From Plantactinospora mayteni (GTDB taxonomy: Bacteria > Actinomycetota > Actinomycetes > Mycobacteriales > Micromonosporaceae): a DNA stretch of 64,000 bases. Position numbers and translations under genes: made by a program. Each line of letters begins with the position of its first letter. The first letter of the stretch is position 1. The DNA lies in assembly GCF_016862935.1 (NCBI RefSeq), contig NZ_BONX01000001.1, positions 1 to 64,000 of the forward strand, in the 5' to 3' direction. The notes under the pieces are model-generated. The model saw only the letters and a program-made list of their open reading frames with translations. It was not told the DNA's origin and ran no database searches. Shown one piece after another: positions 38,672 through 61,568 of the stretch.

Positions 38672-41479
38672 TCAGGTCGTGGTGCAGGTGATGTTGGTCG
38701 GCGGGTTGTTCGTACCGTTCACGGTGGCGATGAAGCCGAAGGTGGTGGAGGCGCCAGCGGCGAGCGCACCGTTGTAGGCGACGTTCGCCACTGCCACGTT
38801 CGCGCCGTTCTGGGTGTACGACCCACTCCAGATCTGGTTGATGACCTGCCCGTTGGGGAATGCCCAGGAGACGGTCCAGCCCGTAATCGGTTTCGATCCG
38901 GCGGTCACTCTGACGTCTGCCTGGAAGCCACCGGGCCACGAGCCGGTCACGGAGTACGCCGCTGTCGCCCCCGACGGCGTGGGCGAGCTGGTCGCGCTCG
39001 GCGGGGCGGACGGACTGGCCGAGGGCGTGACGCTGAGGGTCGGCGACGGCGTCACGCCGGGCCGCGCCGCCCGGTAGGTGTGGCCGGCCCGGACGGTGAG
39101 CTGGATGACGTCGGCCTCGGGTCGCGTGGTGGCCGGCGTGGTGCCGTCGGTGACGTCGACCACCGTGTGGTTCCCGGTGAACAGCCGGGCGCGGAGCTTG
39201 ACGGTGCCGTCGCGGTCGGCCCGGATGAGAAACTCGTCGGCCTGTCCCCTGGTCCATGCCATGCCGACGGTGTATCCGCCGCGGCCACGCAGCCCGGTCA
39301 CGTTCCCGGTGGGCCAGGCGGTTGGCAGTGCGGGGAGCAGGTGTAGTTCGTTGTGGTGGCTCTGTAGCAGCATCTCCGCGATGCCGGAGGTGGCGCCGAA
39401 GTTGCCGTCGATCTGGAATGGTGGGTGCAGGTCGAACATGTTCGGCGCGAGCCGGTCGGTCCGTACCAGATCCCGGATGAGTTTGTGCGCGCGGGTGGCG
39501 TCCTCCATCCGCGCCCAATAGTTGATCTTCCAGGCCAGGGACCAGCCCGTCCCGTCATCACCACGCAGATCCAACGTCCGACGCGCCGCCTCATACAACT
39601 GCGGCGTACCACGCCGGGTGATCTGGTTACTCGGATGCAGACCATACAGGTGCGAGATGTGCCGGTGGGTCCGCTCGGTCTCCACCCAGTCAGCGAGCCA
39701 CTCCTGAATGTTCCCCCGGGACCCGACCCGCATCGGCGCCAACCGCTCCCGGGCCGCCCGCACCTGAACCCGGAAATCGGCGTCCACCCCCAGAACCTCG
39801 CCGGCCCGGACGACACCGTCGAACAGATCCCGCAGAATCTGATTGTCCATCGTCGGCCCCGCACACACGCTGACCCCGGAGTGGTGAGCGAGCTCCGGCG
39901 AGTTCGACGGATTGGTGACCAGGAACCCGAGCGACGGATGGGCGACCAGGGTATCGAGGAAGAACTGGGCCGCACCCTTCAACGCCGGATAGTTGGACCG
40001 AAGGAAGCCGACATCACCAGTGAAAAGATAATGATCCCAGATCAGACTGGCCAGCCACGCCCCACCGGTCTGCCACATACCCCACAACGCACCATCGACC
40101 ACCGACGTACCCCGCCACCCGTCGGTGTTGTGATGCGCGACCCAACCACCCGCGCCATACTGCACCTGCGCCGTACGAGCACCCGTCACCGCCAGATCCC
40201 GGACCAGATCGAAGACTGGCGCGAAACACTCGGCTAGATTCGTCGTGTCCGCAGGCCAGTAGTTCATCGGCAGATTCGCGTTGATCGTGTACTTCGAGTC
40301 CCACGGCGGAGCCATCTGATCATTCCAGATACCCTGAAGATTCGCCGGCTGCGTACCCGGCCGCGACGAAGAGATCAACAGGTACCGGCCAAACTGGAAC
40401 AACAACGCCGAGAACTGCGGATCATCCACACCCCCATGCTGCGCAATCCGCACATCAGTCGGCTGATCGGCCGCGGACGTACGCCCCAGATCAATCGACA
40501 CCCGCCCGAACAACCGCTGGTAATCAGCCACATGCCGACCCCGCAACTGGTCGTAGCCGACGTTGCGGGCGGCGTTGAGACGGGTACGCGCGATGCCCTG
40601 GTAGTCGCCGTTGACGGTGCGATAGTTGACGTAGCTGGAGCCGATCGAGACCAGCAGGGTGACGCTGGTCGCGCCGGACACCCGCAGCGTGCCGGCGGAG
40701 TTGCTCACGGTGCCACCGGTGGCGACGGCGTTGGCCAGGGCGAGGAACCGCACCGAGCCGTTGATGCCCTCCATGTTGCCGGAGATCCCGTCCAGTGCGA
40801 TCGTGGCGCCGTCCGGGCTGGACACCGTGGTCCGTTGCGGACTGTCGAAGGTGGCGTTGAACGTGATCGAGTTGGCCCGGTCGGCGGTCAGCCGGACCAC
40901 GATCACCTGGTCCGGGGCGCTCGCGAACACCTCACGCTGGTACCGCACGCCGTTCAACACGTAGGTCGTGGAGGTGGTGGCGGTGGTCAGATCGAGAATC
41001 CGGTTGTACTGCGACGCCCCGCTGGCGGTGCCGAAGGCGAGCCGAAGGTTGCCGACGGGTTGGTAGGCGAGCTGCCCACCCGGGGTCCCCATCATCGCCT
41101 GGTTGATCAGATTCTGCGCCTGGCTCCACTGATCCGCGAAGACCAGTCGCCGGATCTCCGGCAGCGCCGCCGCGCCGCGAGGGTTGGCGGAGTCGTACGG
41201 CCCACCGGCCCAGACCGTGTCCTCGTTGAGCTGGAGCCGTTCCGTGTCGACATTCCCGAACACCATCGCACCGAGACGACCGTTGCCGATCGGAAGCGCC
41301 CGCAACCAATCGGCGCCCGCCGGCTCGTCGTACCACAGCGCCAGGTCGTTGGCCGCGAGTACCTCGGCTGGCGCGGTCGAACCGGCCCGGGCCAGGGCGG
41401 TCCACCCGGCCGGGAGCAGCGCGGCTCCCATTCCGGCCGCGCCGGCGGTGAGGAGTCTCCTTCGAGTCACTTCGGACAT
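38672..41479 (-). CDS. Tat-secreted GH95 alpha-fucosidase/galactosidase with C-terminal CBM2
   Basis: A 935-residue protein. ATG 41479 is chosen since GGAGAT lies just ahead and the Tat leader (VTRRRLLTAGAAG) follows. The GH95 domain (about 35-800) has the N-terminal LWYDEPAGADWLRALPIGNGRLGAMVFG signature in pieces, the active-site loop NLPMNYWPA, a likely acid glutamate near NSPEL, and the base aspartate in QIDGNFGATSG. A Ser/Pro linker leads to CBM2 (YSVTGSWPGGFQADVRV). Family members split alpha-1,2-L-fucosyl bonds, for example on xyloglucan side chains, and some act on L-galactose. With a GH12 relic and a GH27 alongside, xyloglucan or fucosylated hemicellulose is plausible. The palindromic repeat copy B lies immediately upstream. 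Confidence 0.92.
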   Translation of the reverse strand: MSEVTRRRLLTAGAAGMGAALLPAGWTALARAGSTAPAEVLAANDLALWYDEPAGADWLRALPIGNGRLGAMVFGNVDTERLQLNEDTVWAGGPYDSANPRGAAALPEIRRLVFADQWSQAQNLINQAMMGTPGGQLAYQPVGNLRLAFGTASGASQYNRILDLTTATTSTTYVLNGVRYQREVFASAPDQVIVVRLTADRANSITFNATFDSPQRTTVSSPDGATIALDGISGNMEGINGSVRFLALANAVATGGTVSNSAGTLRVSGATSVTLLVSIGSSYVNYRTVNGDYQGIARTRLNAARNVGYDQLRGRHVADYQRLFGRVSIDLGRTSAADQPTDVRIAQHGGVDDPQFSALLFQFGRYLLISSSRPGTQPANLQGIWNDQMAPPWDSKYTINANLPMNYWPADTTNLAECFAPVFDLVRDLAVTGARTAQVQYGAGGWVAHHNTDGWRGTSVVDGALWGMWQTGGAWLASLIWDHYLFTGDVGFLRSNYPALKGAAQFFLDTLVAHPSLGFLVTNPSNSPELAHHSGVSVCAGPTMDNQILRDLFDGVVRAGEVLGVDADFRVQVRAARERLAPMRVGSRGNIQEWLADWVETERTHRHISHLYGLHPSNQITRRGTPQLYEAARRTLDLRGDDGTGWSLAWKINYWARMEDATRAHKLIRDLVRTDRLAPNMFDLHPPFQIDGNFGATSGIAEMLLQSHHNELHLLPALPTAWPTGNVTGLRGRGGYTVGMAWTRGQADEFLIRADRDGTVKLRARLFTGNHTVVDVTDGTTPATTRPEADVIQLTVRAGHTYRAARPGVTPSPTLSVTPSASPSAPPSATSSPTPSGATAAYSVTGSWPGGFQADVRVTAGSKPITGWTVSWAFPNGQVINQIWSGSYTQNGANVAVANVAYNGALAAGASTTFGFIATVNGTNNPPTNITCTTT

Positions 41480-41499
41480 ATTGATCTCCATTATCGTAA

Positions 41500-41590
41500 G
41501 TGAACCTTTTCCACCTGGACCGTGTGGCGTCCGCCCCGACCTCGACCTGCGGCCAGGACGGACCACAAGGGAGATTGGAAAAGGGTTCGG
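41500..41590. repeat. Dispersed palindromic repeat, copy B
   Basis: GTGAACCTTTTCCACCT at 41500-41516 faces AGATTGGAAAAGGGTTCGG at 41572-41590, followed by TGATCAG as in copy A at 15357. Similarity to copy A extends through the loop (roughly 70 percent by eye). It fills the gap between the GH43 stop and the GH95 start, so both genes are transcribed across it. Confidence 0.65.
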
Positions 41591-41593
41591 TGA

Positions 41594-43354
41594 TCAGGGG
41601 CTGGTGCACGTGAGGGACGGGGTCGAGGGCGTACCGCTGCCGATGAAGCCGAACGTCGTCCCGGCGCCCGCGCCGAGCGAGCCGTTCCACGCGACGTTCC
41701 GTACGGTCGCCGCCGATCCGCTCGTGGTCAGCGTCCCGTTCCAGATCTGGCCGATGGTCTGTCCGTTCGCGAGCGTCCAGCGGACCGTCCAACCGTTGAT
41801 CGCCGCGGATCCGGCTGTCACGGTCACGTCGCCCTGGAAGCCACCCGACCAGGAGTTGGTGGTGCGATAGGTCGCGGCGCACAACCCGGACGGCGTGGTC
41901 GGCGGCGGCGTCGTCGGTGGAGTCGTCGGTGGAGTCGTCGGCGGCGGTGTGGTCGGGTCGCCGGCGTCGAACTGCCACCAGTTGAGGTTGAAGAGGTTGC
42001 CGCTACCGCCGGTGAACCGCAGATACAGGTCGTGGGTGCCGGTCGCGCCGTTCACCGCGCAGGAGACGGTGGTCCAGGTCTGCCAGCCGCCGGTGCCCGG
42101 GACGTTGCAGGTGCCGACGACGGGGCCGTTCGTGCCGTCCAGGCGCACTTCGATACGGCCGCCGCTGGTGGCCGAGGCCACCCGGGCGTTGAACGACGTC
42201 GCGCCGGTACCGAAGGCGGCGCCCTTGACTTTGGTGTAGTCGCCGTTGCTTATCTGGGCGACGTTCATTCCGCCTTCGCTGGACGGTTCGGTTTCGACAC
42301 CGACTTCCCAGGCGATCGTCTCGGCCTCTTGACGCAGGTAGGGGTTCAGGGTGCCGATCTGCGGAGGACCGGCGGTGGTCATGTTGATCGTCGGGATGGT
42401 GCCGTTCGTGTTGTAGGTGAACTTCTCCACCGCCACCGACCGGGTGAAACCACCACCGCCCGGTAGCGCGCCGTTGTGATAGAAGAAGTACGAACCGCCG
42501 TTGAAGTCCACGATCCCGGGGTGGTTGGTGAAGCTGCTACCCTGCCGGGGCATGATCGTGCCCCGGTATGTCCAGGGCCCGGTCGGGGTCGGGGCGGTGG
42601 AGTAGGCGATGAACTCGGCGCAGCATTCCGCCGCGAAAATCATGTAGTAGAGGCCGTTGCGCTTGTAGACCCACGGCGCCTCCTCGTACAGGGTGGGCCG
42701 ACTGGGGTTGCCGGTGCGGGTGCCGAACCCGGCCGTGGTCAACGGGATCTGCGTCGGGTTGCCGGTGTACGAGATCATGTCCGGGTTCAGCCGCACGTAC
42801 CACAATCGCGGGTTGCCCCAGTACAGATACGCCTGGCCGTCGTCGTCGATGAACACCGCCGGGTCGATCTCACCGTTGGCGACCAACGGCCGACCCAACG
42901 CGTCCCGGAACGGCCCGGTCGGGCTGTCCGACACACCCACCCCGATGGCCATCGACCCGGTGGCCCGGTTCTTCACCGGCACGTACCAGTAGAACTTGCC
43001 GTTTCTGTATGTGGTGTGCCCGGCCCACGCGTCCGCGCTCGCCCAACTAAAAGTGGACAGGTTCATCGGTGAGCCGTGATCGGTCCAGTTGACCATGTCC
43101 GCCGACGACCACACCCGCCACTCCCGCATGGTGAAGTAGGTCGAACCGTCCTCGTCACGGCCGGTATACAGATACACCCGGCCGTCGTGCACCAGAGGGG
43201 CCGGATCAGCGGTGTAGATCGTCTGGACAATTGGATTGTCCGCCCGCGCGGGAGCCGGCACGGCGAACAGCGCCACAAGACACAACACGCTCGCGACGCG
43301 GGCCACAGTAGCCCTGAATCCTTCCCTGGCCGAAAATGGGAATGCGAATCTCAC
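41594..43354 (-). CDS. Secreted GH43 arabinofuranosidase-like enzyme with CBM6 and CBM2
   Basis: A GTG at 43354 with AAGGGGC upstream opens a 586-residue protein with a Sec leader. The GH43 propeller (about 35-335) shows IYTADPAPLVHDG with the base aspartate, GEIDPAVFIDDDG with the second aspartate and YEEAPWVYKRNG with the acid glutamate, the layout of arabinoxylan arabinofuranohydrolases (XynD-like). A CBM6-type beta-sandwich (about 345-475, with QAETIAWE and RVASATSGGRIEVRLDG) and a Pro/Thr linker of TTPP units precede the CBM2 (about 495-586). It would remove arabinose from arabinoxylan. It lies 94 bases after the esterase gene and 114 before GH95. Confidence 0.92.
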   Translation of the reverse strand: MRFAFPFSAREGFRATVARVASVLCLVALFAVPAPARADNPIVQTIYTADPAPLVHDGRVYLYTGRDEDGSTYFTMREWRVWSSADMVNWTDHGSPMNLSTFSWASADAWAGHTTYRNGKFYWYVPVKNRATGSMAIGVGVSDSPTGPFRDALGRPLVANGEIDPAVFIDDDGQAYLYWGNPRLWYVRLNPDMISYTGNPTQIPLTTAGFGTRTGNPSRPTLYEEAPWVYKRNGLYYMIFAAECCAEFIAYSTAPTPTGPWTYRGTIMPRQGSSFTNHPGIVDFNGGSYFFYHNGALPGGGGFTRSVAVEKFTYNTNGTIPTINMTTAGPPQIGTLNPYLRQEAETIAWEVGVETEPSSEGGMNVAQISNGDYTKVKGAAFGTGATSFNARVASATSGGRIEVRLDGTNGPVVGTCNVPGTGGWQTWTTVSCAVNGATGTHDLYLRFTGGSGNLFNLNWWQFDAGDPTTPPPTTPPTTPPTTPPPTTPSGLCAATYRTTNSWSGGFQGDVTVTAGSAAINGWTVRWTLANGQTIGQIWNGTLTTSGSAATVRNVAWNGSLGAGAGTTFGFIGSGTPSTPSLTCTSP

Positions 43355-43448
43355 GACTGCCCCTTGAGGAGTGGTTTCTGAACCGGGTGGTCGCCGACCG
43401 GGCACGCGGTCGCGTGCCCGGTTGGCTGTCGCGGTGGCGAAGGAGCCG

Positions 43449-51607: not shown

Positions 51608-53790
51608 CCGGACGGCCGCCGATGACCAGGCGGCCCCGGACGAGCGGCGCGGACGGCACGGCGTACCTGTTCGCCCGGCTCGGGCTGGTCGCCGCGCGGG
51701 TACGTCGGCTGGTGGCCGAGCGCCGCCGCGACGATCCCGACCCGGACGACGCCTTCCGCGGGCTGTACGTGTCGGCGGCCGACGCCGAACGCCTGGCCGC
51801 CACGCCGTCAGCGACCACCGAAACCGGCTGCGGGGACCCGTCCGACGCCCAGGCGTTGGCCGAAGTGGAGGAGACGGCGGACCGGGCCGCCGCGGACGGG
51901 ACCGAACCCCGGCTGCGCCGGCTGGCGCGCGGCTTCGGGCTCACCGCGTTGGACCTGGAGTTCCTGCTCGTCGCGTTACTGCCCGACGTCGAGGCGCGGT
52001 ACGAGCGGCTCTACGGCTATCTCAACGACGACGTCAGCCGGCGCCGGGCGACCATCGGGCTGGCCCTGGAGCTGTCCGGGATCCCCGCCTCGGCAGTCGC
52101 CGGACGATCCCGGCTCGACGGCTCCGCGCCCCTGGTCGGTGGCGGTCTGCTGCTGGTCGAGCGGGCGGACCAGCCGTACCTGTCCCGATCGTTACGGGTA
52201 CCCGACCGGGTGGCCGGGTATCTGCTCGGCGACGACACCGTCGACGCCCAGCTCGCCGAGCTCGCCTGGCCGGCGGAGGAGGACGAAGACGCGGCCAGCA
52301 TCGGCGACGCGGCGGCGCGGGCCGACCTCGCGAGCCGGCTCGGCGCGGCGCTGCGTGCCGGGGTACACCTGGGCTACCTGCGGGAGCGGTCCGGCGCCGC
52401 CGCCGACGACCTGGCGATCGCGGCGCTGGTCACGGCCGGCTGGTCGGTGCTCCGGCTCGACCTGGACGCGCTGACCGCCGCCTCGGCCCCGGCCGACCTG
52501 CTCGCCGTCGCGGTGCGGGAGGCCCGGCTGCGCGGCGCCGGCCTGGTCGCCGGCCCGGTCCAGGCACTCGACCCGGCCGGAAAGCCGGCACACGCCCGGC
52601 TGCTCCGCCGGGTCGCCGACCAGCCGGTACCGGTGCTGCTCACCGGGACGGTCGAGTGGGATCCGCACTGGAGCCGGCAGGCGCCACTGCTGGTCACCGC
52701 CGCGCCGCTGGACGAGCGGGGCCGGGCCAGGCTGTGGCGGAGAGCCGTCGGGGCACGGGCCACGGACCGGCCCGCCGGCTGGCTCGATGGAGTGGACCCG
52801 GCGCGGGAGCTGGCGCCGTACCTGCTCGGCCCGGACCAGCTACGGCGAGCCGCGCAGGCCGCCGACCAGCTCGCGCTCTTCGCCGGTGCGGACCGGGTCG
52901 ACGCCGGCCACCTGCGCGCCGGGGTACGCGGACAGAACGCCGGCGGCCTGGCCCGGCTGGCCCGGCGGATCGAACCCGGCGTCGGCTGGGCCGACCTGGT
53001 GCTCCCCGACCCGGTGCACGACCAGTTGCGGGAACTGGCCCTGCGGGTGCGGTACCGGGACCGGGTGCTGGGCCGGTGGCGGATGCGCCCCGGCGGCGGC
53101 CGGGGGCGGGGCGTACTGGCGCTGTTCGCCGGCGACTCGGGCACCGGCAAGACCATGTCGGCGGAGGTGGTCGCCGCCGACCTCGGCCTGGACCTGTACG
53201 TCGTGGACCTCTCCACGGTGGTGGACAAGTACGTCGGCCAGACGGAGAAGAACCTGGAGCGGATCTTCACCGAGGCGGCCGGCATCAACGGACTGCTGCT
53301 CTTCGACGAGGCGGACGCGATCTTCGGCAAGCGGTCGGAGGTCAGGGACGCCCACGACCGCTATGCCAACCTGGAGAGCGCCTACCTGCTGCAACGGATG
53401 GAGTCCTTCGACGGGGTCGCGGTGCTCACCACGAACCTGCGGGCCAACCTGGACGAGGCGTTCACCCGGCGGCTCGACCTGATCGTCGACTTCGCCATGC
53501 CGGACGTGGCGCAGCGGCGCGCGCTCTGGGACCGCTGCCTCGGCACCGAACTCCCCCGCGACGAGGATCTGGACCTGGACTTCTGCGCCCAGAACTTCGA
53601 GCTGGCCGGCGGCAGCATCCGGGCCTGCGTGGTGACCGCCGCGTACCTGGCGGCGGAGGCCGGTCGGCCGGTACGGATGTCGGACCTGATCGGCGCGGTG
53701 CAGCGGGAGTACCGCAAGCTCGGCCGACTGCTGCTGGAAAGCGAGTTCGGCGCGCACCAACCACGTACGGAACCCGCGCGGGTCCACTGA
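51604..53790 (+). CDS. AAA+ ATPase of the contractile injection cluster
   Basis: A 728-residue protein. The C-terminal third (about 475-710) is an AAA+ domain with Walker A GDSGTGKT (510-517), a KYVGQTEKNLERIF pore-type segment, Walker B LLLFDEAD (D568, E569), sensor 1 AVLTTNLRANLD and arginine-finger region EAFTRRLDLIVDF. The N-terminal 470 residues are helical and Ala/Leu-rich, as in the Pvc15-type ATPases of eCIS clusters, and include a second degenerate ATPase-like region without a P-loop. Such ATPases help assembly or the loading of cargo rather than powering contraction. The start overlaps the DUF4255 stop; the core protein gene follows 17 bases later. Confidence 0.9.
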   Translation: MTGRPPMTRRPRTSGADGTAYLFARLGLVAARVRRLVAERRRDDPDPDDAFRGLYVSAADAERLAATPSATTETGCGDPSDAQALAEVEETADRAAADGTEPRLRRLARGFGLTALDLEFLLVALLPDVEARYERLYGYLNDDVSRRRATIGLALELSGIPASAVAGRSRLDGSAPLVGGGLLLVERADQPYLSRSLRVPDRVAGYLLGDDTVDAQLAELAWPAEEDEDAASIGDAAARADLASRLGAALRAGVHLGYLRERSGAAADDLAIAALVTAGWSVLRLDLDALTAASAPADLLAVAVREARLRGAGLVAGPVQALDPAGKPAHARLLRRVADQPVPVLLTGTVEWDPHWSRQAPLLVTAAPLDERGRARLWRRAVGARATDRPAGWLDGVDPARELAPYLLGPDQLRRAAQAADQLALFAGADRVDAGHLRAGVRGQNAGGLARLARRIEPGVGWADLVLPDPVHDQLRELALRVRYRDRVLGRWRMRPGGGRGRGVLALFAGDSGTGKTMSAEVVAADLGLDLYVVDLSTVVDKYVGQTEKNLERIFTEAAGINGLLLFDEADAIFGKRSEVRDAHDRYANLESAYLLQRMESFDGVAVLTTNLRANLDEAFTRRLDLIVDFAMPDVAQRRALWDRCLGTELPRDEDLDLDFCAQNFELAGGSIRACVVTAAYLAAEAGRPVRMSDLIGAVQREYRKLGRLLLESEFGAHQPRTEPARVH

Positions 53791-53807: not shown

Positions 53808-55631
53808 ATGCGAGCACATGATCCGCCGGACCGCGACGCCTCGACCCGCCCCACCACGCCGACCCGACCGGAGACCACCGCTGCCGGGTTGACCCGACCG
53901 GAGACCACCGCCGGGCTGACCGGTTCGGCGGCCGCGATCCTGGCCCTGCAACGCCGGGCCGGCAACGCCGCGGTGACCCGGGCGGTACAGCGCCGCGGCA
54001 GCGACCCGGACCAGGAACACCCCCACGACGGCCGCCACGACGGGCTCGCACCCGGGTCCGAGCCGGTACAGCGGTCGGCGGTGCACGAGGTGCTGCGCTC
54101 ACCCGGCACCTCGCTGACCGAGCCGGTACGGCAGGACATGGAAGCCCGACTCGGCGCCGACTTCTCCGACGTACGACTGCACACCGGCCCCCTCGCCGAG
54201 CGCTCGGCGGCGGAGGTGAACGCCCGCGCCTACACGTCGGGACCGCACGTGGTACTCGGCCAGGGTGGCACCGACCGGCACACCCTCGCCCACGAACTCA
54301 CGCACGTCATCCAGCAACGCTCCGGCCCGGTCGCCGGCACCGACAACGGTCACGGCCTGCAAGTCTCCGACCCGGGCGACACCTTCGAGCGGGCGGCGGA
54401 GTCGAACGCGCGCCGTGCCCTCAGTACCCGGCCCGCACAGCCGGCGGCGCGGACCGCACCCGAACCGACCGGATCGCCGTCGGGCACCCCGGCGGTCCAG
54501 CGGGTGAGCGCCGACGAGCTGCACCGGGAGCCGACCGGCCCGTCCGTCCAGGTCCGCGGCCCACGCCGGTCGTTCTCCGGCCGACGCGCCACCGCTCAGG
54601 CGAGCCAGGACACCTGGGACCAGCTGAGCGCCGCTTATCAGGCGGCCACCGGGCAGACGCCGGTCAAGGAGCGAATCAACCTCGACACCGACCTGACCTC
54701 GCTGAGCGAGATGAGCCCGCCGGGGGCGGGGTACCAGCTCGGCACCGCCCTGAACCAGGTGGCGATGCAGGAGGGTATCTCGTTGGCAGGCGGCGCCACC
54801 GGCGCCCGCAGCAACGCCGAGATGATGGAGGAACTGGGTCGTAGGGATCCGGTGTCTCGCCCGTACTGGGAGGCACAGGCCGCCCGGGACCAGCAGCTCG
54901 GCAACGACGCGGTTGCCCGGGCCACGCGGTACCAGGACGAGGACGGTGCCGACAACGCACAGGCGCGGAGGGCGGCGACCGCCGGGATGCTGCGCGGAAT
55001 CCCGATGCCGGCGGCCGACGCCACGGACATGCTCCTGATGGCCAGTGACGGTCTGGTCATCGGCGGAGCGCACCGCGAGGAGCCGTTCTTCTCCTGGGCC
55101 ACCGACAACATGGCGCGGTTACACCAGAACGGGGTGCAGACCCTCTACCTCGAGTCGCTCCGGGAGGACGCACACCAGCGCCTGGTCGACGCGTATCTCA
55201 GCAGCGGCGACATGAGCCCGGAGCTGACCAACTTCTGCGCGACCTACCAGCGGTCACACGCCGTCGACCTCGCCGGGTTCCTGGCCGCGGCCCAGAGCAC
55301 GGGCGTACGGGTCAAGGGCACGGGCGGCCGTCCCGCGCGCCAGCAGGGAATGAACATCCACAGCCGCGCGGTCATGCTGAACACCTACGGAGAGCAGGTG
55401 GTCCGGCGGGACCGGGCGCAGACGGTCGCCAGGGGAGAAGAGCCTGGCAAGTACCTGATGCAGGCCGGCGAGTCGCACGCCCACACGCACGCCAACACCC
55501 AGCCGACCCCGGCCGTCGCGGGCGGAGTGAACCTGCCCGACCAGTTCCCAGGCATCAACGAGTTGCTCGACGTCCCCGCCGTACGTCTCGAAGACAGCTA
55601 TGGCGGCGGCAAGCACTTCCGCCCCATCTGA
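53808..55631 (+). CDS. eCIS core protein: DUF4157 zincin-like domain fused to an uncharacterised C-terminal domain
   Basis: A 607-residue protein. After a disordered Pro/Thr head with a duplicated TRPETTAGLT-like stretch comes ILALQRRAGNAAV (44-56) and then the DUF4157 domain (about 85-175) with the metalloprotease-type HELTH (162-166). This domain is a hallmark of eCIS loci and is found on many cargo proteins. Residues 176-240 are a linker with VQR repeats. The rest (about 255-607) is not a known eCIS part. VIGGAH (417-422), LYLES (446-450), a GVRVKG strand and AGESHAHTHAN (553-563) recall the paired histidine/glutamate pattern of ChaN/EreA/TIKI-type hydrolases; this resemblance is tentative. 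The protein may be cargo with its own enzymatic domain. Confidence 0.8.
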   Translation: MRAHDPPDRDASTRPTTPTRPETTAAGLTRPETTAGLTGSAAAILALQRRAGNAAVTRAVQRRGSDPDQEHPHDGRHDGLAPGSEPVQRSAVHEVLRSPGTSLTEPVRQDMEARLGADFSDVRLHTGPLAERSAAEVNARAYTSGPHVVLGQGGTDRHTLAHELTHVIQQRSGPVAGTDNGHGLQVSDPGDTFERAAESNARRALSTRPAQPAARTAPEPTGSPSGTPAVQRVSADELHREPTGPSVQVRGPRRSFSGRRATAQASQDTWDQLSAAYQAATGQTPVKERINLDTDLTSLSEMSPPGAGYQLGTALNQVAMQEGISLAGGATGARSNAEMMEELGRRDPVSRPYWEAQAARDQQLGNDAVARATRYQDEDGADNAQARRAATAGMLRGIPMPAADATDMLLMASDGLVIGGAHREEPFFSWATDNMARLHQNGVQTLYLESLREDAHQRLVDAYLSSGDMSPELTNFCATYQRSHAVDLAGFLAAAQSTGVRVKGTGGRPARQQGMNIHSRAVMLNTYGEQVVRRDRAQTVARGEEPGKYLMQAGESHAHTHANTQPTPAVAGGVNLPDQFPGINELLDVPAVRLEDSYGGGKHFRPI

Positions 55632-55712: not shown

Positions 55713-57377
55713 TCAGGCGGGAGCGGGCTCGATCCTGTCCGGGTCCGCCGACTCGGCCGTGGCGGCGGTGGCCGGCGGTTCGCCTGCCAGGAACTGCCCG
55801 AAGTCGTCCCTGGTACCGACCAGCGCCGCGAAGATCGCCTTCAACTGCTGCTCGTCCTGGCCGGCCTTGTTGATTTTCCTGGTCAGCTCCTCGTCCTGCG
55901 CCTTCAGCCGTCTCAGCCAGTCGCCGCTCAACGTGACCCGCATGGTGTCCAGCTTGCCCACCCCGAGCTTGTCCTGCTTGAGGCCGCCGAAGCTGGACGC
56001 CGGGTTGGCGGTCTTCTCGGTGGACTTGGCGGTGTGTCGGTATCCGACCGGGTTCTTCGGGGCATTCGGGTCCGGCTTGGGCCGCAGTGCGTCGGGCAGG
56101 TGCATCGCCGCGACGAAGAACTCCTTCAGCGCGTCGGAGACGCTCTCCGGAGCGGTGGTCTCCATGCCGATTTCAAGCACGCCGATGCTGCGGGCGGTGG
56201 GCGGTCGGTATACCAGCAGGATGTGACCGTGCATGCCGTTGGGTAGCACCACGTCGCCGTTGAAGTCGCGGCTGCCGATCCCGCCGGCCGCCACGTCGGC
56301 GCCGCGCTCGTCGCGCCGCGGGAACTCCACGAGCTTGCGGATCGTCGCCCCGTGGCCGCCGCGCTCTCTCAGCGTCTCCTCGTTGCCGCCGGTCACGTCG
56401 TGTGTGCTGAACGGCCGCTTGTCCAGGTCGTACATATCCAGCCAGGTCGGCAGCGACGTGCCGTCGATCGGTTCCTCGGTCCGCCCGTGATGGGGAATCT
56501 CCACCCGGACATTGACCCGGCCGCCGTGGGCCAGCGCCCGGGCGACGTTGCCGGTGTGCCGGCGCCAGTCCCGGTCCGCCGAGTACTTTCCCTCGGCCCC
56601 GGCCACCTCCAGCCCCTGCTGGATGATCACGAAGAGTCGCCTGAGCAGCGTGTTGGCCTGCTGATTCTTTTTGTTGTACGCGTCGATCTGCTCCGGGCTC
56701 AGGCCCTCGGCGCCATCCTGGTCGGCCCGTAGTTGGTTGCTGGCAAGGGTCGCCGCGAACTTGTCGCGCACATCGACGTTGAGCTCCGCTTCCAGTTCCT
56801 GTAACAGCGGGTGCTCCTTCGGAAGGGAGTGCATCTGGATGCCCCGGGCCAGCACATACGCGGGGCTGTCCCGGACGCGCGCGGCATCCGGGCCACCGCG
56901 CGCCTCCCAGGCCAGGGTGGCGACGAACAGCCGCTTTCCGGGCGGCAGTTGCAACCAGTCGTAGTACCTGCTGGCGTTGAGATACCGCTGGGCATCGTCG
57001 TGCGTGCCGGTCTCGACCCGCAACGCGTCGCCGGGGTCGGCCCGCTCGATGTGGGACTGCTCCTCGGAGCTGAGCAGCGGTCCGTTCGACAGCCGCAGGT
57101 TGTAGTCCTGCCGCAGTTGGGCGACCTCGGTCGACTCCTTGCTTTTCCCCTTCTTCTTCCCCTGGTTGTCGCCGGGTGCCCGTTGCACCGGTACGGACGG
57201 GGCGGCGCCGTGTTCACCGGAGAGGGCCGCGGCGACGGCGGCGTTGCCGGCGGTGTGCTGAAGCGCCAGTATCGAATGTTCTGGGCCGGCGCCGGACGCG
57301 GCGTCCCTGCGCTGGCCCGACCCCACCGTGCCGCGCTCACCGGCATGCTTCTCCTGCCGCCACTCGCCTGACCGCAT
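55713..57377 (-). CDS. Unknown protein with eCIS-type N-terminal motif; candidate cargo
   Basis: A 554-residue protein that I do not recognise as a family. The ATG at 57377 has GGAGGAG just ahead. Residues 36-48 read ILALQHTAGNAAV, matching 11 of 13 positions of the motif in the DUF4157 core protein, and VPVQRAPG follows near residue 62. Neither a DUF4157 nor a HEXXH motif is present. A Lys-rich break (KKKGKSKE) at about 74 separates this head from a long alpha/beta body with many charged residues: TLAWEARGGPDAARV, NVRVEIPHHGRTEEPIDG, and GHGATIRKLVEFPRRDERG. MHGHILLVYRPPTARSIGVLEIGMET looks like a buried strand pair. There is no leader and no membrane helix. Position inside the cluster plus the shared motif suggest a protein loaded into the particle. 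Confidence 0.7.
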   Translation of the reverse strand: MRSGEWRQEKHAGERGTVGSGQRRDAASGAGPEHSILALQHTAGNAAVAAALSGEHGAAPSVPVQRAPGDNQGKKKGKSKESTEVAQLRQDYNLRLSNGPLLSSEEQSHIERADPGDALRVETGTHDDAQRYLNASRYYDWLQLPPGKRLFVATLAWEARGGPDAARVRDSPAYVLARGIQMHSLPKEHPLLQELEAELNVDVRDKFAATLASNQLRADQDGAEGLSPEQIDAYNKKNQQANTLLRRLFVIIQQGLEVAGAEGKYSADRDWRRHTGNVARALAHGGRVNVRVEIPHHGRTEEPIDGTSLPTWLDMYDLDKRPFSTHDVTGGNEETLRERGGHGATIRKLVEFPRRDERGADVAAGGIGSRDFNGDVVLPNGMHGHILLVYRPPTARSIGVLEIGMETTAPESVSDALKEFFVAAMHLPDALRPKPDPNAPKNPVGYRHTAKSTEKTANPASSFGGLKQDKLGVGKLDTMRVTLSGDWLRRLKAQDEELTRKINKAGQDEQQLKAIFAALVGTRDDFGQFLAGEPPATAATAESADPDRIEPAPA

Positions 57378-57577
57378 CGCGCTCCTCCGGGCCGCCGGCT
57401 CTCCTGCTGTTGTTCAGTGTGTGCCGTCGGTGGTCCCGCCGCGGTGACCGCGAGGGCACACTCACGGGTAGGGCCGGCGGGAACATCGGGGAAGCGTCGG
57501 CGGCGCGTGCGGGCACCTGCCAGGCCCGGCTCGTCCTGGTTGAACTCGTCCTGGTTGAACTCGTCCTGCTTGAACAT
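57378..57577 (-). other. Possible upstream open frame with FNQDE repeats
   Basis: On the minus strand an ATG at 57577, with GGGGGAG five bases ahead, begins MFKQDEFNQDEFNQDE, encoded by a tandem 15-base repeat (about 57533-57570). The frame stays open past 57377 into the unknown gene in another frame, so it cannot be a separate intact protein of normal length. It may be a short leader peptide, the original N-terminus of the unknown protein lost by a frameshift, or chance in GC-rich DNA. Confidence 0.35.
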
Positions 57578-57621
57578 GACACTCCCCCGACCGGTCGACG
57601 CGGGGAAGCGGACCACGCGGA

Positions 57622-58590
57622 TCAGGCCAGCCGTAGCGCCCGCTTCAGGAAGGTGACCGCCTGGTTGATGGCCGCCTCGGCCGCCTCGGTGCCGCGCAGC
57701 GCGTCGAGCATCACGAAGTCGTGGATGATCCCCTGGTATCGGGTCGCCGAGACCTGGACACCGGCCGACCGCAGCCGGTGGGCGTACGCCTCGCCCTCGT
57801 CCCGCAGCACGTCGGCCTCGGCCGTGATGACCAGCGCGGGCGGCAGCCCGGCGAGTTGTTCGGGTGCCGCCCGCAGCGGCGAGGCGGCCGCCTCGGCCCG
57901 TACCGCCTCGTCCGGCGCGTACTGGTCCCAGAACCAACGCATCGCGTCCCCGCGCAGATGGAAGCCCTCGGCGAACATCCGGTACGACGTGGTGTCGAAC
58001 CGGGCGTCGGTGACCGGGTAGAAGAGCACCTGCCCGACCGCTCTCGGCGCACCGCGCCGCTTCGCCAGCAGCGCCACCGCCGTCGCCAGGTTGCCGCCCA
58101 CCGAGTCGCCGGCCACGGCGATCCGCTCCCCGTCCAGGTCGGCCGCGCCGTCTCCGGCGAGCCAGCACAGCACCGTGTAGCACTCCTCGACCGCCACCGG
58201 ATAGCACGCCTCGGGCGAGAGACTGTAGTACGGAAAGACCACCGCGGCCCCGGTGCCGACGGCCAACTCCCGGATCAGCCGGTCGTGGGTGCGGCAGTTC
58301 CCGAAGACCCAACCGGTGCCGTGCAGATAGAGGATCACCGGCAACCGGCCGATGGCACCCGCCGGCCGGACCACCCGGACCGCGATCTCACCGCCCGGCC
58401 CACCCGGCACCACCCGCTCGTCGAGGTCGGCGTCGGGCCTGGCGACGTTGCCGGACTGGAGTTGGTCGAGGACCCGCCGACCCCGCTCCGGCCCGAGCTG
58501 GTGGAGGAACGGCGGTTTCGCGGTCGCCTCCGCGAACTGTCGGGCGGCGGGTTCCAGCACGATCCCGGCGACGCCACTCCGCGCGCTCAC
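57622..58590 (-). CDS. Alpha/beta-hydrolase of the hormone-sensitive lipase (HSL) family
   Basis: About 322 residues, cytoplasmic. Motifs are complete: oxyanion YLHGTGWVFGN (HGTG in place of the commoner HGGG), nucleophile elbow GDSVGGNLA, catalytic aspartate in ITAEADVLRDEG and histidine in GIIHDFVM. Such enzymes hydrolyse small acyl esters. The start is uncertain. The frame is open to 58896, but family members begin just before LEPAARQFAEATAKPPFL, so the GTG at 58590 (or 58560) is preferred, though neither has a good ribosome site. It lies between the unknown cargo candidate and the sheath gene. It is not a usual eCIS component; it may be an accessory, or an unrelated gene inserted with its neighbour. 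Confidence 0.8.
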   Translation of the reverse strand: MSARSGVAGIVLEPAARQFAEATAKPPFLHQLGPERGRRVLDQLQSGNVARPDADLDERVVPGGPGGEIAVRVVRPAGAIGRLPVILYLHGTGWVFGNCRTHDRLIRELAVGTGAAVVFPYYSLSPEACYPVAVEECYTVLCWLAGDGAADLDGERIAVAGDSVGGNLATAVALLAKRRGAPRAVGQVLFYPVTDARFDTTSYRMFAEGFHLRGDAMRWFWDQYAPDEAVRAEAAASPLRAAPEQLAGLPPALVITAEADVLRDEGEAYAHRLRSAGVQVSATRYQGIIHDFVMLDALRGTEAAEAAINQAVTFLKRALRLA

Positions 58591-58926
58591 CGCTGCGGCC
58601 CGCGGACCGGCGGCACCGTCGCCGCCGCCGCGAAAGAGCGGGTACGCCGACGGGATGCGGGACTCTGCCGCCTGGGGATGGGCATCCGACCACTCCGGGA
58701 ATCCGGGCCGCGAGCGCGGCGGAGACGGTCCGAGGTGTCCCTCGGGTACGCGGAGCCTCCCCGGCACCCGCCCGGAAGACATCCGCCATTTGACGGCACT
58801 CGCGGGGAACTGCCTCTTCGGGTAGTGGCCGCTTCCCCGGTGCCCGCCCGTCGAGTCATGGTTCCCGGTCCCGGACCGGCCCAGACTTCTTTGCACGGAT
58901 CACCGTCGTGCCCGAGGGAGTCTGTC
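58591..58926. other. Divergent region upstream of the sheath gene
   Basis: 336 bases. TTGACG occurs near 58792 but has no well-placed -10 box. No repeat or operator was recognised. It probably contains the promoter of the structural eCIS genes. Confidence 0.4.
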
Positions 58927-60474
58927 ATGCCGTCGTACCTGTCACCCGGGGTGTACGTGGAGGAGGTGCCGAGCGGCTCACGCCCGATCGAGGGGGTGGG
59001 TACCGCCGTCGCCGCCTTCGTGGGTTTCGCCGCCAGGGGGCCGTTCAACACCGCGACGCTGGTGACCAACTGGAGCCAGTTCGTCCAGACGTTCGGGGAG
59101 ATGGTCGAGGACGCCTACCTGGCCCAGGCGGTGTACGGCTACTTCGCCAACGGTGGCGGTATCTGCTACGTGGTCCGGGTGGGCGACCCGGCGACGACGA
59201 CCGGTGGGGGCGCGGCGGGCCGGACGGTCACCGGGCCGCCGGTGCCGCTCGGCACCTTCACCGTCACCGCCCTGCCCGGCTCCGGCGACGCCGGTGAGAT
59301 CACCGTGGAGGTGGCCGACGTCGAGGGCGAGTCCGTGCCGGAGGACCGGTTCCGGCTGGTGGTTCGGCAGGACGGCGCGGAGCGGGAGACGTTCGACGTC
59401 TCCGCGAAGCGGAACACCAAGGCGTACGTGGTCAACCAGGTACGGGAGCGGTCGAAGCTGATCGCGGTCGAGGAGGCGGCGCCGGCGAACGCGCTGGCCC
59501 GGCCCGCGAAGCAGTCGGTGAGCGTACCGCCGGTGCCGGCCGAGGACGCCGGCCTGCCCGCCCGGGTCTCCGCCGACGACTACGTCGGTGACGCGGACGC
59601 CCGGACCGGCTTCGGCGGGCTGGAGGCGATCGACGAGGTCACCATGGTCGCGGTGCCCGATCTGATGAGCGCGTACCAGCGGGGGCGGCTCGGCCTCGAC
59701 GACGTCAAGGCGGTCCAACTGGCGGTCATCTCGCACTGCGAGCAGATGGGGGACCGGATGGCGATCCTCGACCCACCGCCGGAACTGACCGCCCGGCAGG
59801 TGTTGACCTGGCGGCAGGGCGAGGCGGGGTACGACTCCCGGTTCGCCGCCCTCTACTACCCCTGGATCAAGGTGTTCGACCCGGCGAGCGGGCAGCACCG
59901 GTTCATGCCGCCGAGCGGGCACGTCGCCGGGCTGTGGTCGCGTACCGACGCGGAGCGCGGGGTGCACAAGGCCCCCGCGAACGACGTGCTCCGCGGCGTG
60001 ATCGAGGTGCAGAACACGGTGACCAAGGGCGAACAGGACCTGCTCAACCCGATCGGGGTGAACTGCATCCGCACCTTCCCCGGCCGGGGGATCCGGGTGT
60101 GGGGCGCCCGGACCCTCTCCGCCGACCCCGCCTGGCGCTACATCAACGTACGTCGGCTCTTCAACTACATCGAGGAGTCGATCCTGCTCGGCACCCAGTG
60201 GGCGGTCTTCGAGCCGAACGACGAACGGCTCTGGGGCACGATCCGGCGCAACATCGCCGCGTTCCTCACCGAGGAGTGGCGCGGCGGGGCACTGTTCGGC
60301 AGCACCGCCGCCGAGGCCTTCTATGTCAAGTGCGACCGGGAGACCAACCCGCCGGAGTCGGTCGATCTCGGCCGGGTGGTCTGCGAGGTCGGGGTCTCCC
60401 CGGTACGGCCGGCCGAGTTCGTCGTCTTCCGGATGTCCCAGTACTCCGACAGCACCAGCCTCGTCTCCGAATGA
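58927..60474 (+). CDS. Contractile sheath protein (phage tail sheath family)
   Basis: A 515-residue protein that forms the contractile outer tube. It begins PSYLSPGVYVEEVPSGSRPIEGVGTAVAAFVGFA, in pieces, the invariant sheath N-terminus that interlocks subunits. Later come NWSQFVQTFGE, AVYGYFANGGGICYVVRVG, a variable insertion (about 110-215), then VAVPDLMSAYQ, CEQMGDRMAILDPP, and PSGHVAGLWSRTDAERGVHKAPAN. The C-terminal block INVRRLFNYIEESILLGTQWAVFEPND to VGVSPVRPAEFVVFRMSQ is full length. GAGGGAG precedes the ATG by six bases. It begins the structural half of the cluster; the tube gene follows after 62 bases. Confidence 0.96.
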   Translation: MPSYLSPGVYVEEVPSGSRPIEGVGTAVAAFVGFAARGPFNTATLVTNWSQFVQTFGEMVEDAYLAQAVYGYFANGGGICYVVRVGDPATTTGGGAAGRTVTGPPVPLGTFTVTALPGSGDAGEITVEVADVEGESVPEDRFRLVVRQDGAERETFDVSAKRNTKAYVVNQVRERSKLIAVEEAAPANALARPAKQSVSVPPVPAEDAGLPARVSADDYVGDADARTGFGGLEAIDEVTMVAVPDLMSAYQRGRLGLDDVKAVQLAVISHCEQMGDRMAILDPPPELTARQVLTWRQGEAGYDSRFAALYYPWIKVFDPASGQHRFMPPSGHVAGLWSRTDAERGVHKAPANDVLRGVIEVQNTVTKGEQDLLNPIGVNCIRTFPGRGIRVWGARTLSADPAWRYINVRRLFNYIEESILLGTQWAVFEPNDERLWGTIRRNIAAFLTEEWRGGALFGSTAAEAFYVKCDRETNPPESVDLGRVVCEVGVSPVRPAEFVVFRMSQYSDSTSLVSE

Positions 60475-60536: not shown

Positions 60537-60980
60537 ATGGCGGAGACGGGCGACACCTTCGTGACCCACCGGTTCCAGGTGGAACTGGGCAAGGCCCGGG
60601 TCGAGTCGGTCCAGGAGGTCAGCGGGCTCACCGTGGAACTCGACGCGATCGAGGTCACCCAGGTCACCCCGACCGGGGAGTACATCATCCGCAAGATACC
60701 CGGGGCGAGGAAGGGCGGCGAGGTGACCATCACCCGCGGTCTGGACAAGAGCAGCGCGTTCACCGAGTGGATCAAGGACACCTACGAGAAGGGCGCGATC
60801 AACGCGGCCCGGCAGAACATCAGCGTCATCGTCGTGGACGCGGAAAACGCGGAGCAGCGCCGGTGGGATCTGACCAACGCCTGGGTGAGCCGGTGGGAAG
60901 GCCCCAACCTGAGGGCCGGTGACACGTCCCCGGCCACCGAGAAGATCACGATCGTCTTCGAGGAAATCACCAGTTCCTGA
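60537..60980 (+). CDS. Inner tube protein (phage tail tube family)
   Basis: A 147-residue protein of the gp19/Hcp-like tube family that stacks as rings inside the sheath. Landmarks are FVTHRFQVELGKARVESVQEVSGL, KIPGARKGGEVTITRGLDKSSAFTEWIKDTY and RWDLTNAWVSRWEGPNL in pieces, with EKITIVFEEI at the end. The length is normal. AAGGAAAGGA lies upstream of the ATG. It follows the sheath directly, as in all eCIS loci. Confidence 0.95.
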   Translation: MAETGDTFVTHRFQVELGKARVESVQEVSGLTVELDAIEVTQVTPTGEYIIRKIPGARKGGEVTITRGLDKSSAFTEWIKDTYEKGAINAARQNISVIVVDAENAEQRRWDLTNAWVSRWEGPNLRAGDTSPATEKITIVFEEITSS

Positions 60981-61088: not shown

Positions 61089-61568
61089 ATGAGGCGACGT
61101 ACCGTTTCGCACACCGCCCAGGACGAGCCGCCGGACGGCCCGGACTCCGACCCGGGGGCCGCCCCGGTCGGCCGGGCCACGCAGCCCGGGCCGCCGAGGC
61201 TCCAGACCGAGTTCTCCTTCGAACTCCCCCGGGGATACGTCGACGAGGCGGGCACCCTCCACCGGCACGGCAGCATGCGGCTGGCCACCGCCCGGGACGA
61301 ACTCGCCCCGCTGGTCGACCTGAGGGTCAAGGACAATCCCGCCTACCTGTCGGTCGTGCTGCTAAGCATGGTCGTCACCCGGCTGGGCACGATCACCGAG
61401 GTACGGGCCGAGCACGTGGAGCGGCTGTTCGCCTCGGACCTGACCTTCCTCCAGGACTTCTACCGGCGGATCAACGCGGAGGGGCACACCCGCGCCGCGG
61501 TCACCTGCCCGCACTGCGCCGGAGGCTTCGAGGTGGATCTCGCCGGTGGTCGCCCGGGGGAATCGTGA
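61089..61568 (+). CDS. Small eCIS-associated protein with C-terminal CPHC motif
   Basis: A 159-residue protein. A disordered head of about 35 residues precedes FSFELPRGYVDEAGTLHRHGSMRLATARDEL, LRVKDNPAYLSVVLLSMVVTRLGTI and LFASDLTFLQDFYRRIN, a pattern found in conserved phage-tail/eCIS proteins encoded just after the tube and thought to resemble tail assembly chaperones. The end has CPHC followed by FEVDL, half a zinc-ribbon site. Its stop overlaps the DUF6760 start (GTGA at 61565-61568). GAGG lies close before the ATG. Confidence 0.75.
   Translation: MRRRTVSHTAQDEPPDGPDSDPGAAPVGRATQPGPPRLQTEFSFELPRGYVDEAGTLHRHGSMRLATARDELAPLVDLRVKDNPAYLSVVLLSMVVTRLGTITEVRAEHVERLFASDLTFLQDFYRRINAEGHTRAAVTCPHCAGGFEVDLAGGRPGES

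Follow-up and report, generated by a model that had tools for sequence, protein, structure and literature searches.

Cargo recognition by an extracellular contractile injection system (eCIS) is the subject of this analysis of a minus-strand gene of the soil bacterium Plantactinospora mayteni, whose product (P0001) shares a short N-terminal head with the DUF4157 core protein of the same injection cluster. The gene was analysed in a window of 64,000 nucleotides (the whole stretch of DNA under study, with a base composition of 70% G+C) and in samples of related genomes. From the window alone, the original prediction had taken the head for a loading or recognition tag and the body behind it for a protein of no nameable family, possibly a new kind of cargo. 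On sequence comparisons, the gene product is probably a toxin carried as cargo by the neighbouring eCIS, made up of an N-terminal address for loading and an Ntox11 body. As the motif follows the sheath gene in both genome samples examined, cargo recognition becomes directly testable in actinomycetes.

The contractile injection cluster occupies about 47-69 kb of the contig. Its 5′ part encodes a PD40-repeat protein, a small protein which we take to be DUF4255-like, an AAA ATPase and the DUF4157 core protein; the genes for P0001 and an alpha/beta hydrolase follow on the minus strand, between core and sheath, and the 3′ part comprises sheath, tube, a second tube-like gene, a CIS tube/LysM gene, spike hub and gp25 (Table 1). 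The P0001 gene lies 81 bases from the end of the core gene, which is the gene context of an eCIS-associated toxin (EAT), and the start of the sheath gene is at most 1.6 kb from it.

Table 1. Coordinates of P0001, its parts and the neighbouring cluster genes in the window
Feature	Position	Strand	Evidence or remark
AAA ATPase with winged-helix domain, cluster ATPase	51622..53790	+	PF22977, PF00004
eCIS core (DUF4157) protein, own head at residues 44-56, C-terminal body unnamed	53808..55631	+	PF13699, E 2.9e-25
Head + Ntox11 protein P0001	55713..57377	-	554 aa; PF15521, E 2.8e-21, best stretch residues 237-414
P0001 Ntox11 region, residues 226-532	55782..56702	-	Pfam and invariant R287, R321, H326, H385, E406, H448
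VQR after the P0001 head, residues 64-66	57180..57188	-	Translation
P0001 head motif ILALQHTAGNAAV, residues 36-48	57234..57272	-	Translation, pattern search, predicted structure
P0001 N-terminal tail, residues 1-35, polar, predicted-disordered	57273..57377	-	pLDDT, Kyte-Doolittle
Alpha/beta hydrolase, between toxin and sheath	57622..58590	-	Profile search
Contractile sheath protein	58927..60474	+	PF04984, PF17482 in longer frame 57721-60474
Tail tube protein, gp19 family	60537..60980	+	Profile search

P0001 and the Ntox11 family

Translation returned the open reading frame and the protein length that had been predicted. The start is supported by the sequence GGAGGAG 4 bases upstream of the ATG at 57377, and the head is thus N-terminal. 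In the predicted structure of P0001, which pointed to no enzyme class, residues 1-31 have a pLDDT below 50 and the head sits within a helix of low confidence (residues 32-53); the mean Kyte-Doolittle value of residues 3-35 is -1.53. In the core protein, read from position 53808, ILALQRRAGNAAV forms residues 44-56. As had been noticed at the outset, ILALQxxAGNAAV is common to both proteins, with 11 of 13 positions identical, VQR follows downstream in each, and P0001 is without a DUF4157 domain, since the PF13699 profile gave no match to it in the Pfam search.

The body was assigned to Ntox11 (PF15521) with 76.6 bits at a Pfam gathering cut-off of 25, over positions 2-214 of the 294 positions of the profile. 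The body does have a nameable family, therefore, and its reading as a new kind of cargo is not supported: Ntox11 is a known polymorphic-toxin family for which the link to PVC/eCIS is already listed. A fused relative matched the same profile with an E value of 1.7e-42 (positions 35-285). In the table of Zhang et al. (2012; PMC3482391), Ntox11 is entered as PVC-delivered and without an immunity partner, and the signature given for it there is GxR, RxxxoH, H, GxE and GxxH. The corresponding residues of P0001 are G285xR287, R321-xxx-T325-H326, H385, G404xE406 and G445xxH448, where the lone H of the signature was set to H385 by our own choice. These residues are invariant across 22 aligned sequences, save for T325, the alcohol of RxxxoH, which is conserved in at least 90%. 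In profile match, signature residues and PVC/eCIS context P0001 is thus like the Ntox11 proteins of PF15521 and Zhang et al. (2012), but it has no DUF4157 in its own chain and bears a head of its own. P0001 is presumed to be toxic.

The family is rare: in the class and family samples described below it was found in 1 of 246 and in 2 of 200 genomes, the P. mayteni genome being one in each. In four congeners and one more genome of the family the same cluster is present with core and hydrolase genes side by side and without Ntox11, and PF15521 was not found by profile search in six congeners. By this comparison, the toxin is an addition at a variable site between core and sheath, and because the five toxin-less relatives have the hydrolase too, the latter is unlikely to be the immunity gene of the toxin. 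The place between core and sheath holds further head proteins in other clusters, namely three in G124 (core protein not counted) as well as three in G101 and two in G253 (core protein counted in both).

In order to collect relatives, a species-genome collection was scanned with a three-row profile of the Ntox11 body, which yielded 20 mutually related loci, all actinobacterial by their titles and one of them (L083) the Symbioplanes gene already contained in the query. Their Ntox11 proteins are 32-39% identical to P0001, and a head of the form [LVI]Q-x2-[AVL]GN stands upstream of the Ntox11 body in 18 of them. By our own reading, the strict pattern used below fits no more than 4 of the 18, and counts made with it are therefore low estimates. 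In Symbioplanes lichenis, head, DUF4157 (assigned by similarity to the core domain of the window) and Ntox11 are joined in one chain of 732 residues, encoded syntenically between ATPase and sheath; in Streptomyces sp. BHT-5-2, head-DUF4157 and head-Ntox11 are encoded by adjacent genes, in that order. The two headless loci are L076, where the toxin is fused to DUF4157, and L087, where it is the last part of an open frame of 3746 residues. By similarity to the genes of the window, further CIS genes or domains were recognised in 10 of the 20 loci (only the core domain in L075 and L086; a sheath within the locus itself in L083 and L084), and no CIS gene was found in the examined flanks, some of them cut, of the other 10. 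A sheath gene is present in 16 of the 17 genomes searched (from 18 of the 20 loci, of which L078 was left out), compared with 41/246 and 117/200 genomes in the class and family samples.

The head and the bodies behind it

Two alanine-rich N-termini encoded by a genome of 70% G+C may resemble each other by chance. A degenerate-codon pattern of the head with up to two mismatches matched the window twice, in P0001 and in the core gene, with 0.00 matches expected from 100 shuffles (a narrower codon set picks up the core only). When 41,610 residues from head proteins were shuffled 300 times, no hit was obtained, and the head is kept in 18/20 Ntox11 loci. A chance likeness, the probability of which is considered negligible, was rejected on these grounds. 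In the whole genome of 9.84 Mb the strict head pattern found only the P0001 and core sites, and the relaxed pattern added one match on contig C44, LQWVAGNPAS, which is without the head architecture.

For the analysis of the architecture, 74 sites of the motif were inspected, 48 from the class sample and 26 from three family genomes (20 of 22 in G251, 4 of 13 in G270 and 2 of 2 in G253, some frames being cut). Five sites (G237, G083:C10, G047, G027 and G094) were judged chance-like by eye and left out of the body clustering. The remaining 69 show, by eye, a polar tail, a hydrophobic pair, LQ-x2-AGN-x-AV and another hydrophobic pair. Clustering of the bodies (BLAST, single linkage, E < 1e-3) resulted in 36 clusters, the largest of which (19 proteins) contains most of the DUF4157 proteins and the second (8 proteins) long proteins, several with weak coiled-coil-like Pfam matches. 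When one protein per cluster is counted, conservation extends beyond the searched letters to L at -3 (25/36), L at -2 (22/36), R at +2 (24/36), L at +12 (22/36) and L/V at +13 (24/36), and it fades out over some 20 residues downstream. The 30 residues before the head have a mean Kyte-Doolittle value of -0.93 (68 proteins) versus -0.33 further downstream (67 proteins); together with the prediction for P0001, this corresponds to the hydrophilic, disordered N-terminus of PVC/Afp-kind signal peptides.

Pfam families above the cut-off were assigned to 5 of 30 scanned class proteins (from 43 kept sites; two eCIS_core, SH3_3, GT4-conflict and Scabin-like) and to 7 of 20 scanned family proteins (from 26 sites; two eCIS_core, three PG_binding_1, N-acetylmuramidase and Endonuclea_NS_2), the other 25 and 13 having no Pfam family above the cut-off. 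Five head peptides gave no match in Pfam and NCBIfam at E values up to 10. In G251, the 22 motif sites are spread over its contigs (L117-L132); the bodies include muramidase, nuclease and peptidoglycan-binding types, and a deaminase match stayed below the threshold. The tag reading was therefore strongly supported as far as it concerns a short N-terminal head on unrelated bodies, and the association with sheath genomes reported below also agrees with it; the part on a new kind of cargo is the one that found no support.

A VQR-type triplet follows within 70 residues of the head in 52 of the 69 head proteins. Head and triplet might thus be a processing site, which the DUF4157 metallopeptidase would recognise or cut in itself and in its partners, so that the toxin is freed in the course of injection or afterwards and no loading address is involved. 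Such a function would suit the position of the head shortly upstream of DUF4157 in many core proteins and in the Symbioplanes fusion, and autoprocessing has been proposed for the DUF4157 domain by Zhang et al. (2012; PMC3482391). However, the conserved part has a hydrophobic, helix-like pattern and is not just a bond-like site, 17 of the 69 proteins are without the triplet, and growth inhibition was independent of the metalloprotease motifs in one study as cited in PMC11297309. Processing is therefore regarded as improbable.

Sheath association and the putative loading address

Two genome samples, a class sample of 246 and a family sample of 200 with three genomes in common (G000, G082 and G175), were searched with the strict DNA pattern of the head, which also admits F for L, and with PF17482 for the sheath. 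In the class sample 48 sites were found in 24 of 246 genomes (2 hits for the reversed-pattern control), and the PF17482 domain, which is not eCIS-specific and also matches in 3 of 14 control genomes, was found in 41. Motif and sheath coincide in 18 genomes, 23 have the sheath only, 6 the motif only and 199 neither (Fisher p 1.6e-11, with all sites kept and related genomes counted as independent). In the family sample 92 sites were found in 32 of 200 genomes (3 hits for the control), while 117 genomes have a sheath gene. These include every one of the 32 motif genomes (p 5e-9), so that 0 of the 83 genomes without a sheath carry the strict motif. As the genomes of the samples share ancestry, both p-values treat relatives as independent.

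The sites are also enriched in the vicinity of the sheath, in the way that the check proposed with the original prediction asks for. Within 30 kb of a sheath gene lie 16 of 48 class sites versus 0.47 expected (computed for the 41 class sites in sheath genomes) and 27 of the 90 family sites listed, out of 92, versus 1.0 expected; among the sites listed, 22 of the 32 family motif genomes have at least one such site. About two thirds of the motif sites listed are more than 30 kb from the sheath or on another contig, and the head is for this reason not tied to the cluster; draft assemblies break up clusters. Of the 24 class motif genomes, 6 are without a sheath match. Four of the five chance-like class sites are in sheath-less motif genomes and one in a sheath genome, and three head-like sites belong to G015 and G116, with neither sheath nor core match in either genome. 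In the family sample, the G420 site may be a chance match, its first codon, allowed by the pattern, being one for Phe.

In a side count, the motif was present in 17 of 23 class sheath genomes with a best sheath score of at least 69.8 bits and in 1 of the 18 that score no more than 69.0 bits, a split counted by ourselves with a threshold set after the fact; the head may be a feature of a single sheath lineage.

It is conceivable that the head is part of another export route and overlaps with eCIS through shared lineage only. The scattering of head genes (22 sites in G251, 13 in G270) and the two genomes with head-like sites but without sheath or core matches would fit such a route, against which stand the absence of the motif from the 83 sheath-less family genomes and the clustering of sites near sheaths (27 versus 1.0 expected among the sites listed); it is considered highly improbable. 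At the level of genomes, the refutation named with the original prediction, a motif just as common away from eCIS loci, does not hold, as none of the 83 sheath-less family genomes has it. Since many unrelated effector-like proteins carry the head and since it is nearly confined to sheath genomes, it probably marks cargo for loading.

In the proposed address, a polar, disordered stretch of about 35 residues would precede the short helix L-L-x-LQR-x-AGN-x-AV-x2-L-[LV] and a linker, mostly with VQR. Its reader in the producing cell would probably be a factor shared by all headed cargos, for which the DUF4157 core protein and/or the AAA ATPase and the tube initiator/spike are the most likely candidates, and this reader would load the toxin protein into the particle. 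Often the DUF4157 protein bears the same head, and it can be fused to the toxin instead of being adjacent. In Streptomyces lividans, potential contacts have been reported between the DUF4157 protein Sle2 and the tube initiator and between Sle2 and the N-terminal region of the cargo Sle1 (PMC13277306). As in P. mayteni, the gene for the DUF4157 protein lies there beside the cargo gene and next to sheath genes; Sle1 differs from P0001 in being described as a tape-measure-like coiled coil (PMC13277306). The DUF4157/eCIS core domain (PVC-metallopeptidase), for its part, is encoded in the same cluster as P0001, has the head in common with it and occurs joined to this toxin in a relative, but the domain itself is missing from P0001.

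Alternatively, the head could be a helix that docks on nothing but the DUF4157 protein; the latter would act as a chaperone and would itself hold the address. Both partners are headed in P. mayteni and fused in Symbioplanes, the Sle1-Sle2 and potential Sle2-tube-initiator contacts (PMC13277306) are of this kind, and the L076 toxin, fused to DUF4157, has no head. Among the compared clusters, 8 of 13 core frames have the head by the relaxed expression; the five headless frames are both frames of L141, a congener, and one each of L041, L046 and L047, and in the last three the core is headless next to a headed neighbour. Many DUF4157 proteins, however, bear the head themselves, DUF4157 is part of the chain in only 16 of the 69 head proteins (own count), and most sites are distant from the sheath, which makes exclusive docking rather unlikely.

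For the loading address, a close precedent is given by PVC and Afp, where 50-70 disordered N-terminal residues load unrelated effectors with the help of the AAA ATPase (PMC11495950). The arrangement of the head is alike in being N-terminal, polar and disordered and in standing before unrelated effectors, with an AAA ATPase in the system. According to a 2024 paper, no specific conserved sequence was detected in PVC and Afp signals (PMC11297309), while in PMC11495950 sequence alignment is reported to sort the signals of lineage I into groups; the actinobacterial head differs in having a short shared sequence. The simplest reading, by analogy, is that the head may be the actinobacterial counterpart address, read at the ATPase, DUF4157 or the spike. 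The Ntox11 family and its PVC/eCIS link were already known, and a description of the shared head was not found in the literature searched (motif strings, phrases and DUF4157 papers, with few subscription papers and no preprints).

With somewhat better than even probability, LQ-x2-AGN-x-AV would be a general, sequence-defined address for the cargo of one actinobacterial eCIS lineage, including core proteins, cluster toxins and orphan effectors. MIX is a family-independent N-terminal effector marker of the T6SS. The head is like MIX and LXG as a family-independent N-terminal marker with orphan effectors away from the apparatus genes, but it is much shorter, belongs to a different system and has a putative marker role. 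Such a short motif would allow effectors that are without DUF4157 and distant from the cluster to be found, and if the address is general, unknown eCIS arsenals could be read from genomes as with MIX and LXG. LXG has been described as a marker of this type for the T7SS (PMC12691689).

Other genes of the cluster

No Pfam family matches the core protein in its C-terminal body (54498-55631, plus strand). In the relative L140, a match to this body is located in a protein apart from the core domain, as if the body were exchangeable cargo, too. Between a small gene and the second tube-like gene, a proline/alanine-rich low-complexity open frame of 994 residues with five VQR-type triplets was observed at 61925-64909 (plus strand; L005:11925-14909). 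It had no match in Pfam, NCBIfam and PHROGs and is possibly a linker or tape-measure-like protein; L040 and L038 have a stretch free of gene calls at the corresponding place. A small gene at 61089-61568 (plus strand) is kept in related clusters and weakly matches phrog_508 (phage tail assembly chaperone, E 6e-4). A short direct repeat encoding FNQDE-FNQDE is located between the hydrolase and toxin genes (57525-57580, minus strand). Beside the cluster, at 38672-43405 on the minus strand, two carbohydrate-active enzymes, GH95 and GH43, are encoded, both with CBM2 domains.
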